A DNA stretch of 64,000 nucleotides. Source: Bdellovibrio sp. BCCA. GTDB lineage: Bacteria; Bdellovibrionota; Bdellovibrionia; Bdellovibrionales; Bdellovibrionaceae. Location of the stretch: assembly GCF_037996825.1 (NCBI RefSeq), contig NZ_JBBNAC010000001.1, positions 3,100,001-3,164,000 of the forward strand. The letters run 5' to 3'. Positions 39,239 through 45,940 of this stretch are shown here, piece by piece. The first letter of the stretch is position 1, and every line of letters starts with the position of its first letter. Under the pieces are notes generated by a model. The model had not been told where the DNA came from and ran no database searches. It worked only from the letters and a program-made list of their open reading frames with translations. A program made the position numbers and the translations under genes.

Positions 39239-40429
39239 CTATCTTGGGCTCTTTTTGTTATCTTCCATCGCGACGGTTCTATTCTTTCTCGCGAGAGAAA
39301 TGAGTGCGATGTTGTATTTGTCTTTCGGAATCGCGATCACTGTGTGGGCTGGAATCGGAGTTCCTTTGCGGGCTTTTTGCGTCAAGTGTGGGTTGTACAT
39401 TTGCGCTTTTTCATCGTCGCCGTCAAACCAGCTTACGATCTCTTTGTATTTTACGGACACTGGCAATTTCAGATCTTGAGAGTTAAAAGGCTTTGACCAT
39501 ACAACAGAGCCGAAGTATTTGCCTGCGTTCTTTTCTACTTCAAGAGCGGCTAGGAAACTGGCGTAGAAGTTTCTAGAGGCAAAGCCGAAGCTCTTACGAG
39601 ACTTCACATTTTGCACAAGTTCTCCCAATTCACGAGTTTCATAGCTCTTTGTCATTTTCAAAACGCCTGTCGGTCCATGGTTGTAACCAGTGACCGCTAA
39701 AGGCCAAGAATCAAGCATATTGTAGTTTTGGCGCAAAAGTTTTGCCGCCAATTTAGTCGCCTCTAGCGGGTGATTTCTTTTATCCACCACCGGAGAAATC
39801 ATTCTATACGGACGAGCCGTGTACGGCATGATTTGCCAGATACCGCTCGCGCCCACTTTCGATCTTGCCATGATGTTGAAAGAACTTTCCACAAACGCCA
39901 AACGAGTCAATTCGATCGGCATATTGGCATCGCGGAAGATTTTTTCCATATCTTCTATGTAACGGCCCGAATAGAAAATTGCGTCTTGCATGCGGTCTTT
40001 TTGACCCAGTTGAAAACGCAAACGATCTTTTTCTTCTTTAGTGAGCTTCAAACCGATGATGCTTTTAACTTCATCGACTTTCTTTTGTTTTTCACGCTCT
40101 GTCGTTAGACCTGTGAGATCCACAACTTCATACACAGTCTCTACATTTTCGGCGTCATGGATGACACCTTGGTTTGTAGAATATTTGGTATAGATATCAA
40201 TCCAGAATTGAACCTGTTTTTCCATTCCTTTAGGAATAGCAAACGCGTCTTCTTTGTAACCCAAAGCCGAATTCTGGTCTTTAAATACAGGCGCGCGCCA
40301 TGGACGACTTTCTTCAGGGCTGCGACCGAGAACTTGTGGAACGACTTGACCTGCAATATCGTTCTGCGCAAATGCCACTGGAGAAATCAAAAGACCCGCG
40401 TATAAAATTGAGACAGTGATTTTCTTCAT
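39239..40429 (-). CDS. Secreted lytic transglycosylase (SLT domain, MltD-like)
   Basis: A 396-residue protein with signal peptide (ending SPVAFA). The SLT domain holds the catalytic glutamate in LAFVESSFNIMARSKVGASG, followed by IWQIMPYTARPY and AVTGYNHGPTGV. A C-terminal segment (about residues 330-390) may be a degenerate LysM-like part. It cleaves glycan strands with formation of anhydro-MurNAc in the periplasm, for cell-wall growth or prey wall remodelling. AAGGTGA precedes the ATG. Confidence 0.9.
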   Translation of the reverse strand: MKKITVSILYAGLLISPVAFAQNDIAGQVVPQVLGRSPEESRPWRAPVFKDQNSALGYKEDAFAIPKGMEKQVQFWIDIYTKYSTNQGVIHDAENVETVYEVVDLTGLTTEREKQKKVDEVKSIIGLKLTKEEKDRLRFQLGQKDRMQDAIFYSGRYIEDMEKIFRDANMPIELTRLAFVESSFNIMARSKVGASGIWQIMPYTARPYRMISPVVDKRNHPLEATKLAAKLLRQNYNMLDSWPLAVTGYNHGPTGVLKMTKSYETRELGELVQNVKSRKSFGFASRNFYASFLAALEVEKNAGKYFGSVVWSKPFNSQDLKLPVSVKYKEIVSWFDGDDEKAQMYNPHLTQKARKGTPIPAHTVIAIPKDKYNIALISLARKNRTVAMEDNKKSPR

Positions 40430-40460: not shown

Positions 40461-41891
40461 TTATTTTACAAGATAGATAAGCAAATTATCAAAAAACGAA
40501 CGAATCTTCGCCTCATCCGTAGACCCGTTGTAAATAAATGAAAAAGTGATCACATTTCCATCTTCAATACCCGCGTATCCAGCCAGAGAAACGACGTTCG
40601 TCAAGAATCCCGTTTTAGCACGAACCCAACGTTCCGCTTTGGAGTTCTTCATGCGCTTTTTGAGCGTGCCATCAATACCCGCGATGGGCAAGGATGTGAG
40701 GAACTCCGGCTGGACTTGAAAATCATTGCGCAAATGTTGCAACACTTTCCACATCGCAAACGGTGACATTTTATTTTCACGCGTCAAACCTGATGGCGAT
40801 TCCAAGCGGTATTGATCCGCGGGAACCCCCAGACTTTGCATGTGCTCATTGATAACTTGCATTCCATCCGCAAGACTTGCGCCCTTTGTTTTTTTTACGG
40901 CTCCTAGGTTTTTTGTCAGCATCTCGGCCACATAGTTGTTGGAAAACTTATTCATGTCCGCCACAACTTGCTCAATGGCCTTGCTTTCAGACTCAGCAAG
41001 AACATCGGCCTTTTCTGGTGTGACACCGTTCTTGATAGAACCGGTGAGTTGAACACCCCTTTGCGCTAAAAAAGATTTCAAATTATAACCTGCCCAAAGG
41101 TCGGGTTGCGTGATGTTCTTAAAGATCACCACTTCTTTAAGTCCCTGTCCGATGGAACCACCGACATGGATGACGTCACCTTCGAATTTCTTATCTTCCT
41201 GACGATCCGCAAGGAGTTTATTATCTGATCCCGCCACTGTTTTTGCTTTATTCACCAAGCGGATGTAGTCGTTTTGCGGATCAATGAAAACCTCGGCCCC
41301 ATTGCCTTTGCCGTTGGAGCGCACAAAAATATTCACAGAATTCCAGTTAAAACTCATCGCTCCTGTTGGTGCATCATAAGCGCGGTCCACACGCTCTTTT
41401 TGGCGGCTGACGTCATAACGGACTTTGTCGAATAAAGAGTCATCCACCACAACGTCGCCTTCGATTCTTGTAATTCCGTTGCGCAGGAAGGCGTTTACTA
41501 AATACCACATGTTTTCAGAAACAAACGAAGGATCACCGCCCCCTTTTAGATACAGATTTCCTTTAAGAACTCCGTTCTTAGGTTCTGCACTCGCAAGCAA
41601 CTGTGTTTTAAATTTATGACCGGGAGGAAAATGCGCCAATGCCGCGGAAGCCGTTGCGACTTTTGAAATCGATGCCGGGATCATCGTTTTTTTCCCGTTT
41701 ATATCCAGAAGAACTTTCATATCCTGGCCTTCACCCACCGTGGCGTACATACCAACATCTGAAAGCTGCACTCCGAATTTTTTAGCCAACGCTTGGAACT
41801 CTTTTTCCACATCCGCAAACTTATTTGCTTCAACGGGCTGGGCATGTACGGACAACGAGAACAACAGGACGGCGGCAATAATAAATTTCAC
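40461..41891 (-). CDS. dacB: D-alanyl-D-alanine carboxypeptidase/endopeptidase (PBP4 family)
   Basis: A 476-residue penicillin-binding protein of the PBP4/DacB (S13) family with signal peptide. Active-site motifs are SISKVA (SxxK), SNNYVAEML (SxN) and RAKTGFL (KTG). It hydrolyses D-Ala-D-Ala and cross-links in the periplasm. The start is GTG at 41891 with GAGGAA upstream. In Bdellovibrio, DacB enzymes are known to act on the prey wall during invasion; whether this copy does is not visible from sequence. Confidence 0.93.
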   Translation of the reverse strand: MKFIIAAVLLFSLSVHAQPVEANKFADVEKEFQALAKKFGVQLSDVGMYATVGEGQDMKVLLDINGKKTMIPASISKVATASAALAHFPPGHKFKTQLLASAEPKNGVLKGNLYLKGGGDPSFVSENMWYLVNAFLRNGITRIEGDVVVDDSLFDKVRYDVSRQKERVDRAYDAPTGAMSFNWNSVNIFVRSNGKGNGAEVFIDPQNDYIRLVNKAKTVAGSDNKLLADRQEDKKFEGDVIHVGGSIGQGLKEVVIFKNITQPDLWAGYNLKSFLAQRGVQLTGSIKNGVTPEKADVLAESESKAIEQVVADMNKFSNNYVAEMLTKNLGAVKKTKGASLADGMQVINEHMQSLGVPADQYRLESPSGLTRENKMSPFAMWKVLQHLRNDFQVQPEFLTSLPIAGIDGTLKKRMKNSKAERWVRAKTGFLTNVVSLAGYAGIEDGNVITFSFIYNGSTDEAKIRSFFDNLLIYLVK

Positions 41892-42010: not shown

Positions 42011-42943
42011 ATGAAAAAACGTGAATGGCTCATCGTGATTCTTCCTCTATTGGCGACGTGGTCTTTGGACCGCGTCACTAAACTGTGGGCGACAGGAATC
42101 ACTCAGTTGCAATCTTTTGGTCCTGTCCACTTCGTTCTGCACCACAATCACGGTGCCATGTTAGGTCTTTTCTCGGATCTTCCATCGGTCTTGCGTATCG
42201 TGTCTTTGTCTACGGGCGGGGCTTTTCTTCTTTGCACTTACGCTTTGATTCAATATCTTTTGCCCATCAAGTCCCTGACTTTGCGCACGGGCTTATCGAT
42301 TTTGATTGGTGGTATTATCGGCAACGTCACCGATCGTATCGTCTGGGGTTATGTTGTCGACTTCATTGTTGTCGGAACTCCTTCTCTTTCAAGTCCTGCC
42401 TTTAACATCGCCGATGCTTTGCAATGGGTGGGTTATGCATTGATCGTTTATGCAATCATTCGCGAGGGCGAACTTCTTTGGCCCGAAAACAATGTGCGCA
42501 AACAATACTGGGTCAATATGCCTTTCCAATTGAAGTATTGTTTTATTCTGATGGCGGTGGGATTAAGTCTGACGCTTATTTGTTTGGTGTTCTCTTACAC
42601 CTATATGCGCGTGACGATTCAAGAGCTTGTGGGCAATAACGCCTTCTTGGTGAACAAGTTCCTTGTTCCCTATGTGATCACCTTCGTGATTATCTGTGTG
42701 GCCTTTTGCGCGATCTTGTTTGCCGTGGGACGCGTGATTTCTCACCGAATCGCCGGACCTCTTTACGCCTTTGAACGTTTTTTAAAAATGTCATTGGACG
42801 GGACATCCACGCCGCTCAAACTCCGTGCGGGAGACGAATTTAAACATCTGGAAGAACTGGCAGAACAAGTCAATGAGCGCTTAAATCAGATTAAAAAAGA
42901 GCGCACCGTTCAGGTGATCGAATATTCAGAAGACGAAAATTAA
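42011..42943 (+). CDS. lspA: Lipoprotein signal peptidase II fused to a membrane HAMP module
   Basis: A 310-residue protein, twice the usual LspA length. Residues 1-155 form a signal peptidase II with catalytic aspartates in GNVTDR (D108) and FNIADA (D135). Two further transmembrane helices (about 173-197 and 215-242) bracket a short loop and lead to a HAMP-like domain (about 243-295: RIAGPLYAFERFLKM, then RAGDEFKHLEELAEQ). The C-terminus is a charged coiled coil. The first part cleaves prolipoproteins in the inner membrane; the role of the second part is unknown. No strong Shine-Dalgarno sequence is seen. Confidence 0.88.
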   Translation: MKKREWLIVILPLLATWSLDRVTKLWATGITQLQSFGPVHFVLHHNHGAMLGLFSDLPSVLRIVSLSTGGAFLLCTYALIQYLLPIKSLTLRTGLSILIGGIIGNVTDRIVWGYVVDFIVVGTPSLSSPAFNIADALQWVGYALIVYAIIREGELLWPENNVRKQYWVNMPFQLKYCFILMAVGLSLTLICLVFSYTYMRVTIQELVGNNAFLVNKFLVPYVITFVIICVAFCAILFAVGRVISHRIAGPLYAFERFLKMSLDGTSTPLKLRAGDEFKHLEELAEQVNERLNQIKKERTVQVIEYSEDEN

Positions 42944-42962: not shown

Positions 42963-42990
42963 CTCCGATCGTGATGATCGGAGTTTCTAT
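42963..42990 (+). terminator. Terminator after lspA
   Basis: CTCCGATC-GTGAT-GATCGGAG is a perfect 8-bp stem followed by TTTCTATTT; it lies between convergent genes. Confidence 0.75.
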
Positions 42991-45659
42991 TTACTTGTTC
43001 CAAGGCTCACTGCAGGAAGGGCGTCGCCCATTTCTCCGGCGCCATCGCCTAAGTTATTTGTATGACCTTGACCGAGTTGACCATTGATATTGTATCCCCA
43101 GCACTTCACCATCGAATTATCAAGAAGAGCACATGTGTGATTTTGACCCGTGTAAATTTGCACCGCTGTTCGCCCCGTTCCTAAGCTCACCGAAGGAAGC
43201 GAATCTCCCATCTCGCCAGCACCATCTCCCATGGAATTTGTATTGCCTTGACCCAACTGACCATAGTTATTGTACCCCCAGCACTTCACTGTCGAATTAT
43301 CTAAAAGAGCACACGTATGATTGTTACCCGCTGAAATCTGCACAGCAGTTCGCCCCGCTCCTAAACTAATCGCCGGTAATGAATCCCCCATCTCGCCAGC
43401 ACCATCTCCCAAAAAATTTGTATGCCCTTGACCCAATTGACCCACGCCATTGACTCCCCAGCACTTTACTGTCGAATTATCTAAAAGAGCACAGGTATGA
43501 AAGATGCCCGCAGAAATTTGTAAGGCGGTTCGTCCCGTTCCTAAATTGATCGCAGATAATGAGTCCCCCATCTCGCCAGCACCGTCTCCCAGTCTATTTG
43601 TATGACCCTGACCCAATTGACCATAAGTATTGTAACCCCAGCACTTCACTGTCGAATTATCTAAAAGAGCACAAGCATGAGAATCACCCGCAGAAATTTG
43701 AACGGCAGTTCGTCCCGTTCCTAAACTAACCGTCGGCAACGAATCCCCCATCTCTCCAGCGCCATCTCCTAAATTATTTATGTGACCTTGACCCAATTGA
43801 CCATAGTTATTGTACCCCCAGCACTTCACTGTTGAATTATCGAGAAGGGCACAGGTGAAATGCGACCCCGTTGAAATTTGCACGGCAGTTCGTCCCGTTC
43901 CTAAATTGATCGCCGGTAATGAATCCCCCATCTCGCCAGCACCATCTCCTAAATCATTTGTATGACCTTGACCCAATTGACCAACGCTGTTGGAGCCCCA
44001 ACACTTCACTGTTGCATTATCGAGAAGGGCACAGCTGTGATAATAACCCGCCGAAACTTGCACGGCGGTTCGCCCCGTTCCTAAACTAATCGGAGGTAAC
44101 GAATCCCCCATCTCTCCAGCGCCATCTCCTAAATTATTTATATGCCCCTGCCCTAATTGCCCATAGGTATTGTTGCCCCAGCACTTCACAGTTGAATTAT
44201 CGAGAATAGCACAAGTGTGATTGTTACCCGCCGCCATCTGCTTAAATCGTCGTGCTCGTATTAATTCCGGATCTTGAACTTTCACCAAACGCGAAGGAGA
44301 GGTTCCAAATTTAAGCGCAGGAAGAGCGTTACCCATTTCTCCGGCAGCGTCGCCTAGGTAATTCATATTCCCCTGACCCAGTTGCCCCCAACCATTGAAG
44401 CCCCAACACTTTGCCGTCGAATTGTCTAACAGAGCACAACTATGATTTATGCCAGCGGAAACTTGAAGAACCGTTCGCCCCGTTCCTAAATCGACTGCCG
44501 GTAACGAGTCTCCCATTTCCCCAGCCCCATCACCCAAACTATTTGTATGACCTTGTCCTAACCGACCGTTGCCATTGTAACCCCAACACTTCACGGTGGA
44601 GTTATCTAAGAGGGCGCAAGTGTGATTACCACCAACAGAAATCTGTACCGCCGTGCGACCGGTTCCTAAATCAACCGCTGGCAAAGCGTCGCCCATTTCT
44701 CCAGCGCCATCTCCTAAGACAGTGGTATTGCCAATTCCAAGATTACCATTGGAGTTATTTCCCCAGCATTTGACGGAAAAATTATCTAGAATAGCACACG
44801 TGTGGTTATTCCCGGCGGCTACCTGACGGGCAGTACGCCCCGTACCCAAATTAATCGCAGGCAAAGAGTCACCCATTTCACCTGCGCTATCTCCAAGCGA
44901 TGCCGTACTCCCCTGACCTAATTGACCGTTGTTATTGTATCCCCAACACTTCAAAGTAAAATTATCCAAAAGTGCACACGTATGATCGCTGCCTGTCGCA
45001 ATTTGCAATGCTGTTCGGCCCGTTCCTAAATTCACTGCGGGTAGTGCGTCACCCATTTCACCTGCGCCATCTCCTATTTTATTGATGTGACCTTGCCCTA
45101 GGTGTCCTGCTGAGTTTAATCCCCAACACTTCACCGTAGAGTTATCCAACAGAGCGCAAGTGTGGTTGTTTCCCGCAGCCAGTTGTCGAGCCGTGCGGCC
45201 TGTTCCCAAGTCGATCGCAGATAATGAATCTCCCATTTGTCCGGAAGTATCTCCGATGTTATTCGTATGTCCCTGTCCTAATTGACCCTGTAGATTGCCG
45301 CCCCAACACTTCACAGTGGAGTTATCCAAGAGTGCACAGGTATGAAGGCCACCGGCTACGATCTGCACGGCAGTACGATTTGTTCCTAAATTTACTGTTG
45401 GCAAGGAGTCACCCATTTCGCCTGAACCATCACCTAGATTATTCGTATTGCCAACCCCTAGCTGACCGGAGCCATTACCACCCCAACATCTCACTGTTGA
45501 GTTATCTAAAATTGCACAAGTATGATTTTGCCCGCCCACAACCTGCTTCACCTTCACCGAATTCTTCTGCGACCACATTGCTGTCGGCAACATGCCTCCG
45601 GCGAAGACAGAACTCGCCGTCCCGAAAAATATAAAAAGAGAAAAAATAAAACTATTCAT
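42987..45659 (-). CDS. Secreted RCC1-like double beta-propeller
   Basis: An 890-residue protein with signal peptide (MNSFIFSLFIFFGTASSVFA). It holds 14 repeats of about 60 residues, each with KCWG, GQLGQGHTN, GEMGDSLP, LGTGRTA and HTCALLDNST. An extra 15-residue insert (around FGTSPSRLVKVQDPELIRAR) splits the array into two sets of seven, suggesting two seven-bladed propellers. Two cysteines per repeat (TCALLDN and KCWG) could give a disulfide in each blade. The ATG at 45659 follows GGGAG. It is probably a surface or periplasmic binding protein; the partner is unknown. Confidence 0.88.
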   Translation of the reverse strand: MNSFIFSLFIFFGTASSVFAGGMLPTAMWSQKNSVKVKQVVGGQNHTCAILDNSTVRCWGGNGSGQLGVGNTNNLGDGSGEMGDSLPTVNLGTNRTAVQIVAGGLHTCALLDNSTVKCWGGNLQGQLGQGHTNNIGDTSGQMGDSLSAIDLGTGRTARQLAAGNNHTCALLDNSTVKCWGLNSAGHLGQGHINKIGDGAGEMGDALPAVNLGTGRTALQIATGSDHTCALLDNFTLKCWGYNNNGQLGQGSTASLGDSAGEMGDSLPAINLGTGRTARQVAAGNNHTCAILDNFSVKCWGNNSNGNLGIGNTTVLGDGAGEMGDALPAVDLGTGRTAVQISVGGNHTCALLDNSTVKCWGYNGNGRLGQGHTNSLGDGAGEMGDSLPAVDLGTGRTVLQVSAGINHSCALLDNSTAKCWGFNGWGQLGQGNMNYLGDAAGEMGNALPALKFGTSPSRLVKVQDPELIRARRFKQMAAGNNHTCAILDNSTVKCWGNNTYGQLGQGHINNLGDGAGEMGDSLPPISLGTGRTAVQVSAGYYHSCALLDNATVKCWGSNSVGQLGQGHTNDLGDGAGEMGDSLPAINLGTGRTAVQISTGSHFTCALLDNSTVKCWGYNNYGQLGQGHINNLGDGAGEMGDSLPTVSLGTGRTAVQISAGDSHACALLDNSTVKCWGYNTYGQLGQGHTNRLGDGAGEMGDSLSAINLGTGRTALQISAGIFHTCALLDNSTVKCWGVNGVGQLGQGHTNFLGDGAGEMGDSLPAISLGAGRTAVQISAGNNHTCALLDNSTVKCWGYNNYGQLGQGNTNSMGDGAGEMGDSLPSVSLGTGRTAVQIYTGQNHTCALLDNSMVKCWGYNINGQLGQGHTNNLGDGAGEMGDALPAVSLGTSK
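42990..45530 (-). repeat. Tandem DNA repeats of about 180 bp
   Basis: The coding repeats are also conserved at DNA level: for example ccccagcacttcac recurs every 180 bases. Near-identity of neighbouring units suggests recent duplication or gene conversion. Confidence 0.85.
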
Positions 45660-45940
45660 CTTAAGTCTCCCTGATACGCAGCCCTCCTCTTGTATCGGGA
45701 ACTTCAATTTTTCGCTGGATATTGAGACATTAATTTGTGCTGCAGGTCGATCAATAAATGCAGCGATTTTTGAATGAAAACCTCTATGACTCCTGACAAA
45801 CACTTTTGATGTTGCCAACGATAATTCAGCAACACTATTTGCGCTACTTCCAGTCACTGTAAGCTAAAAAAGCCCTACGCATATTGTAACAAATTGAATG
45901 TCGAACCAAGTATCCTATACGTTCTTTACTAATTAAAAAA

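Follow-up and report, generated by a model that had tools for sequence, protein, structure and literature searches.

The gene at 42011-42943 on the forward strand of the window (the whole stretch of 64,000 nucleotides of Bdellovibrio sp. BCCA DNA that was analysed) joins a signal peptidase II (LspA) domain to two further transmembrane (TM) helices and a HAMP-like domain in a single protein. The LspA-2TM-HAMP arrangement is genuine, old and conserved. Judged from sequence, the best-supported reading, to which we give a probability of about 0.5, is that the fusion acts as an additional, catalytically competent signal peptidase II for one or a few lipoproteins, with a C-terminal two-helix HAMP module that would control its assembly or activity. 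The features of the gene and of its near neighbours are as follows.

39239-40429, reverse strand: lytic-transglycosylase-like gene, named from sequence resemblance alone
40461-41891, reverse strand: divergent DacB-like gene
42011-42943, forward strand: LspA-2TM-HAMP fusion gene, one uninterrupted frame encoding 310 residues
42011-42475, forward strand: LspA (signal peptidase II, Peptidase_A8) domain, residues 1-155
42359-42361, forward strand: codon of catalytic Asp117
42413-42415, forward strand: codon of catalytic Asp135
42530-42598, forward strand: TM5, residues about 174-196 (hydropathy core 177-195)
42599-42667, forward strand: short stretch of about 23 residues, predicted to be periplasmic from the model, hydropathy and LspA topology
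42668-42730, forward strand: TM6, residues about 220-240 (hydropathy core 222-240)
42725-42910, forward strand: HAMP-like domain, residues 239-300, with the motifs SHRxAGP and LRxxDxF

The LspA domain and its C-terminal extension

Residues 15-150 match Pfam Peptidase_A8/LspA (PF01252) with 82.8 bits against a cut-off of 25. The closest PDB sequence to the fusion is that of the LspA 6ryo (E 7e-10 in a PDB sequence search), and the AlphaFold2 model of the fusion matches the LspA structures 5dir, 6ryp and 6ryo in Foldseek with E values from 7e-8 to 2e-6. For S. aureus LspA, 14 residues are listed as highly conserved (PMC6952399), and the fusion has every one of them (D20, K24, N46, G48, G101, N105, D108, R109, V115, D117, F131, N132, A134 and D135); D117 and D135 are equivalent to Asp118 and Asp136, the catalytic aspartates of the S. 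aureus enzyme (PMC6952399). The claim of an earlier note on this DNA that both catalytic aspartates are kept is therefore correct. Of 119 distinct fused proteins extracted from the fetched loci, 93 have all 14 residues and 112 at least 13, and D117 and D135 are each retained in 118. The fusion thus resembles LspA (PF01252; 6ryo, 5dir) in fold, with a four-helix domain and a beta-cradle, and in its conserved residues, but it is twice as long and carries two more TM helices and the HAMP-like domain. With NCBIfam TIGR00077, the model for the canonical LspA equivalog, it scored 46.8 bits, below the cut-off of 73.95, and so it is not classed as a canonical equivalog.

Both termini of LspA are cytoplasmic, which would place the HAMP-like C-terminal part of the fusion in the cytoplasm as well. 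Two strongly hydrophobic helices follow residue 158, and in the whole-protein AlphaFold2 model the region beyond the LspA domain consists of helix 170-207, which includes TM5, helix 211-262, which includes TM6, a 16-residue connector and helix 279-308, and the protein ends 10 residues past the HAMP-like domain. A sensor domain would not fit into the roughly 23 residues between TM5 and TM6. The additional TM pair and HAMP-like domain described in the earlier note are borne out by the frame, hydropathy and models. The coiled coil that it listed with the HAMP-like domain is just the second HAMP helix with a short tail, and its suggestion of a link to a membrane sensor array is not supported, as, going by Pfam and segment lengths, the protein contains no sensor domain of any size and no MCP domain, kinase domain or array component.

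Pfam HAMP (PF00672) gave no match in the fusion or in 22 homologues even at E<=10 (23 sequences), and nothing significant was found with Pfam or NCBIfam over the C-terminal part of the fused form, so the HAMP label rests on profile-profile and structural evidence. An alignment of residues 239-300 from the 119 homologues was compared by hhalign with 11 accepted HAMP domains from the same genome, and this gave a probability of 92% and an E value of 5.4e-7. The stand-alone relatives described below gave 98% and 1.2e-13 in the same comparison, and in both cases none of 200 column shuffles came near. When the C-terminal part was modelled alone from 45 sequences, the same helix-connector-helix order was obtained as a monomer model with a mean pLDDT of 93.9. 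The HAMP receptors WalK and McpB were the top two PDB structures matched to this model, with weak Foldseek E values of 0.35 and 3.7. Matches of the C-terminal profiles to chloride-channel and designed-protein PDB sequences look like hydrophobic-helix noise and were set aside. Within the tail, Q173, S244 and F254 are present in 119 of 119 homologues and G249, P250, R272 and D275 in 118. Like HAMP domains (PF00672) in histidine kinases and chemoreceptors, the domain follows a TM helix and has the helix-connector-helix order, the AS1 proline, the AS2 DE(F)xxL pattern and a profile-profile match. Unlike them, it lies below Pfam detection, has its own motifs and is neither followed by a kinase or MCP output nor preceded by a periplasmic sensor. 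From these profiles and models we conclude that the C-terminal domain represents a divergent HAMP subfamily with the motifs SHRxAGP and LRxxDxF. A failing HAMP profile, which the earlier note had named as evidence against its proposal, is literally what Pfam returned, but that result is overridden by the hhalign test.

The fused homologues are full-length with a continuous frame, and four linker residues, W157, P158, R163 and W167, do not vary among 23 aligned sequences. Separate translation of the C-terminal part from an internal start, the other observation that the earlier note had named as refuting, is extremely improbable: an in-frame ATG at codon 170 and the existence of stand-alone 2TM-HAMP proteins in the same genome would allow it, but internal starts are not conserved, Met is not found at codon 170 in most homologues, the internal starts of the fusion gene lack a Shine-Dalgarno-like sequence in front of them, and the continuous frame and invariant linker argue against it. 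Among the close relatives L001, L003, L004 and L005, nonsynonymous divergence was 0.04-0.06 for the LspA part, 0.05-0.08 for the 2TM part and 0.10-0.16 for the HAMP part, with synonymous sites near saturation. All three parts are under purifying selection.

Distribution of the fusion and of the stand-alone module

Fusions of this kind occur across Bdellovibrionota, where the earlier note had advised a search for LspA-HAMP architectures, and are present in further families of the phylum as well. In another phylum one fusion (L225) was found in a sample of 237 genomes. When fused and stand-alone forms are counted together, the C-terminal module occurs in 134 of the 144 genomes searched in the class and, across the phylum, in 344 of 369. 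Tree building placed all 46 fused LspA domains that were sampled in one group with a support of 0.84, away from the 16 canonical and 8 other LspAs included, so the fused domains form a clade distinct from the canonical LspA that these genomes also encode. This single clade points to one old fusion event as the probable origin. A third, non-fused LspA type, which is separate from both the canonical and the fused type in the tree, was seen in several genomes of the class (L216, L217, L218, L219, L162, L220 and L221). A 487-residue version of the fusion (L188 1424-2884, reverse strand) has an extra C-terminal AhpC-TSA/redoxin domain (Pfam, 39 bits).

An LspA match was found in all 144 genomes of the class that were searched, with two or more in most. 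Elsewhere in the window genome a canonical LspA of 173 residues is encoded (G000:C1:3280460-3280888); the fusion is thus a second LspA, and lipoprotein maturation in general would not have to rely on the fusion. Replacement of the canonical enzyme by the fusion was considered and rejected, as no complete genome with only the weaker-scoring type was noted among these 144. The window genome also has two Lgt-family genes (G000:C1:3287700-3288410 and G000:C1:1028695-1029660), which is the usual number in the phylum sample.

Many of these genomes additionally encode the module as a stand-alone protein of about 140-240 residues without LspA, and in a second phylum the module is common and nearly always lacks LspA. 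Pfam HAMP came near its cut-off on these stand-alone proteins but stayed below threshold. Their homology to the fusion spans the two helices as well as the HAMP-like domain (L039 and L041 in Bdellovibrionota, L243 in the second phylum), and they differ from it in having no LspA domain. The window genome has one such protein of 140 residues (L039 1483-1905, forward strand); a more distant relative of the module, with 236 residues, is also encoded there (L040 1279-1989, reverse strand). In all three genomes of family f11 (L041 2181-4709, reverse strand; L042; L203) the stand-alone gene directly follows canonical lspA and two lgt genes, in the order ileS - lspA - lgt - lgt - module (ileS was read in L041), with genes that overlap or nearly do so. 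Even an unfused HAMP-like module is thus linked with genes for lipoprotein maturation in family f11. A linkage of module and lgt as a general rule was not adopted, as it was seen in this family only.

Gene neighbourhood and joint decay with a solute-binding protein

The divergent DacB-like gene adjoins the fusion in 83 of 119 loci, which probably reflects a shared location rather than a shared function, and the lytic-transglycosylase-like gene is near the fusion in 49 loci. An exonuclease-like gene is convergent to the fusion in 78 of 119 loci. In the window, the site that this gene has in most relatives is occupied by a convergent gene (42987-45857, reverse strand) for a 956-residue protein of many HTCALLDNSTVKCWG-type repeats, RCC1-like in appearance.

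In other families of the class, a gene for a solute-binding protein (SBP_bac_5) lies upstream of the fusion on the same strand in 36 loci, directly in 27 and with a REC-GGDEF gene between the two in 8, as in L144. A REC-GGDEF gene is found at most 130 bp upstream of the fusion in 17 loci from families f1, f5, f7 and f9. Regular-expression matches and inspection placed a Cys at the end of the signal sequence of the neighbouring solute-binding protein in 33 of 37 loci. Most of these proteins have an ordinary G, A or S before the Cys, and the idea of an altered lipobox specificity was dropped. A different lipoprotein-like gene is located 1-12 bp before the fusion in some other families (L187, L188, L190 and L191), and in L184, L196 and L199 the upstream gene is not lipoprotein-like. 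This neighbourhood of solute-binding lipoproteins and REC-GGDEF proteins in relatives is consistent with a connection between signalling and the handling of lipoproteins. In the window genome no close homologue of the solute-binding protein was found (best match 26% identity), and the best REC-GGDEF match lies away from the fusion. The absence of both linkages in Bdellovibrio suggests that something else maintains the fusion there.

The solute-binding proteins without a lipobox Cys are exactly those of the four loci with the most degraded LspA, in which 6-7 of the 14 residues remain (L052, L159, L160 and L161). This association has a Fisher's test value of 1.5e-5, which shared descent may reduce to one event, and the joint decay is possibly a single evolutionary event. 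The four loci come from two small-genome genera, and a canonical LspA is still present in three of the four genomes. The joint loss of active site and neighbouring lipobox is the strongest lead obtained and points to the solute-binding protein as the client of the fusion in those lineages. Additionally, the 2TM-HAMP part is retained in all four despite the decay of LspA, which suggests that it may contribute something besides cleavage.

Possible functions of the fusion

A dedicated peptidase that is dimerised, and probably controlled, by way of HAMP is the best-supported reading, suggested by the intact set of LspA residues, purifying selection, the profile-profile HAMP match, the single clade and the separate canonical LspA, and also by the linkage to SBP_bac_5 and REC-GGDEF genes, the joint decay and the f11 gene order. 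Counted against it are the missed TIGR00077 and Pfam HAMP thresholds, the weak Foldseek values for HAMP receptors, the restriction of joint decay to two small-genome genera and the missing SBP and REC-GGDEF linkage in Bdellovibrio. If this reading is right, the LspA part would be catalytically active, and the HAMP helices would pair in the cytoplasm as a parallel dimer that brings two LspA domains together. The hold of the LspA groove on its client, or the cleavage of that client, could then be altered when TM5 and TM6 pack differently or when a cytoplasmic partner makes contact. The client would be the adjacent solute-binding lipoprotein where the operon exists.

A possible, though less probable, account is that the fusion is a constitutively active second LspA whose 2TM-HAMP-like tail just dimerises or positions the enzyme with no control by a signal. 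The intact active site, the lack of a sensor or output domain and a tail that is conserved although no signalling gene lies beside the fusion in Bdellovibrio are all consistent with it. However, the highly specific tail residues listed above and the 17 loci with REC-GGDEF linkage suggest more than anchoring.

It is doubtful whether LspA-HAMP could be a transmembrane receptor built from a protease. A cognate solute-binding lipoprotein would be captured by its lipobox anchor, which the LspA groove would recognise and normally cleave, and the ligand state of this lipoprotein would be relayed through TM5, TM6 and HAMP to a REC-GGDEF partner in the cytoplasm, with peptidase activity being secondary. 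The gene order SBP - REC-GGDEF - LspA-HAMP in 8 loci agrees with this, as does the fact that 2TM-HAMP outlasts LspA where the adjoining solute-binding protein turns into an uncleaved-looking, membrane-anchored protein. Pure capture would not require an active site that is strictly conserved in nearly all homologues, however, and Bdellovibrio lacks the SBP and REC-GGDEF neighbours. If this were true, lipoprotein maturation and cyclic-dinucleotide signalling would be one machine.

A copy conferring tolerance to globomycin- or myxovirescin-type antibiotics, as proposed for the extra lspA genes of producers such as Myxococcus xanthus, is very unlikely, as biosynthesis genes are absent from the conserved neighbourhood, the conserved residues that contact the inhibitors are unchanged and the HAMP module would be left unexplained. 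M. xanthus is likewise a predatory bacterium with multiple lspA copies, namely four, two of them in the myxovirescin cluster; the portion of the source used here, from which the paralogues are compared by description, mentions no HAMP part (PMC8689077).

In Gram-negative bacteria LspA has a housekeeping role, and it is a target of antibiotics. One review and one structure paper mention no regulated form of it, and no description of an LspA-HAMP fusion, or of LspA in Bdellovibrio, was found in an open-access library. LspA, HAMP and multiple lspA copies are each known, whereas their combination in LspA-HAMP and its phylum-wide conservation appear to be undescribed. If the reading of a dedicated, regulated peptidase is true, an LspA with a signalling-type module, conserved across a phylum and linked in many genomes to one particular lipoprotein and a gene of the diguanylate-cyclase type, would show that lipoproteins can be processed in a client-specific and signal-dependent way, and the fusion would offer a defined handle on regulated lipoprotein processing in a predator whose life cycle needs envelope remodelling.
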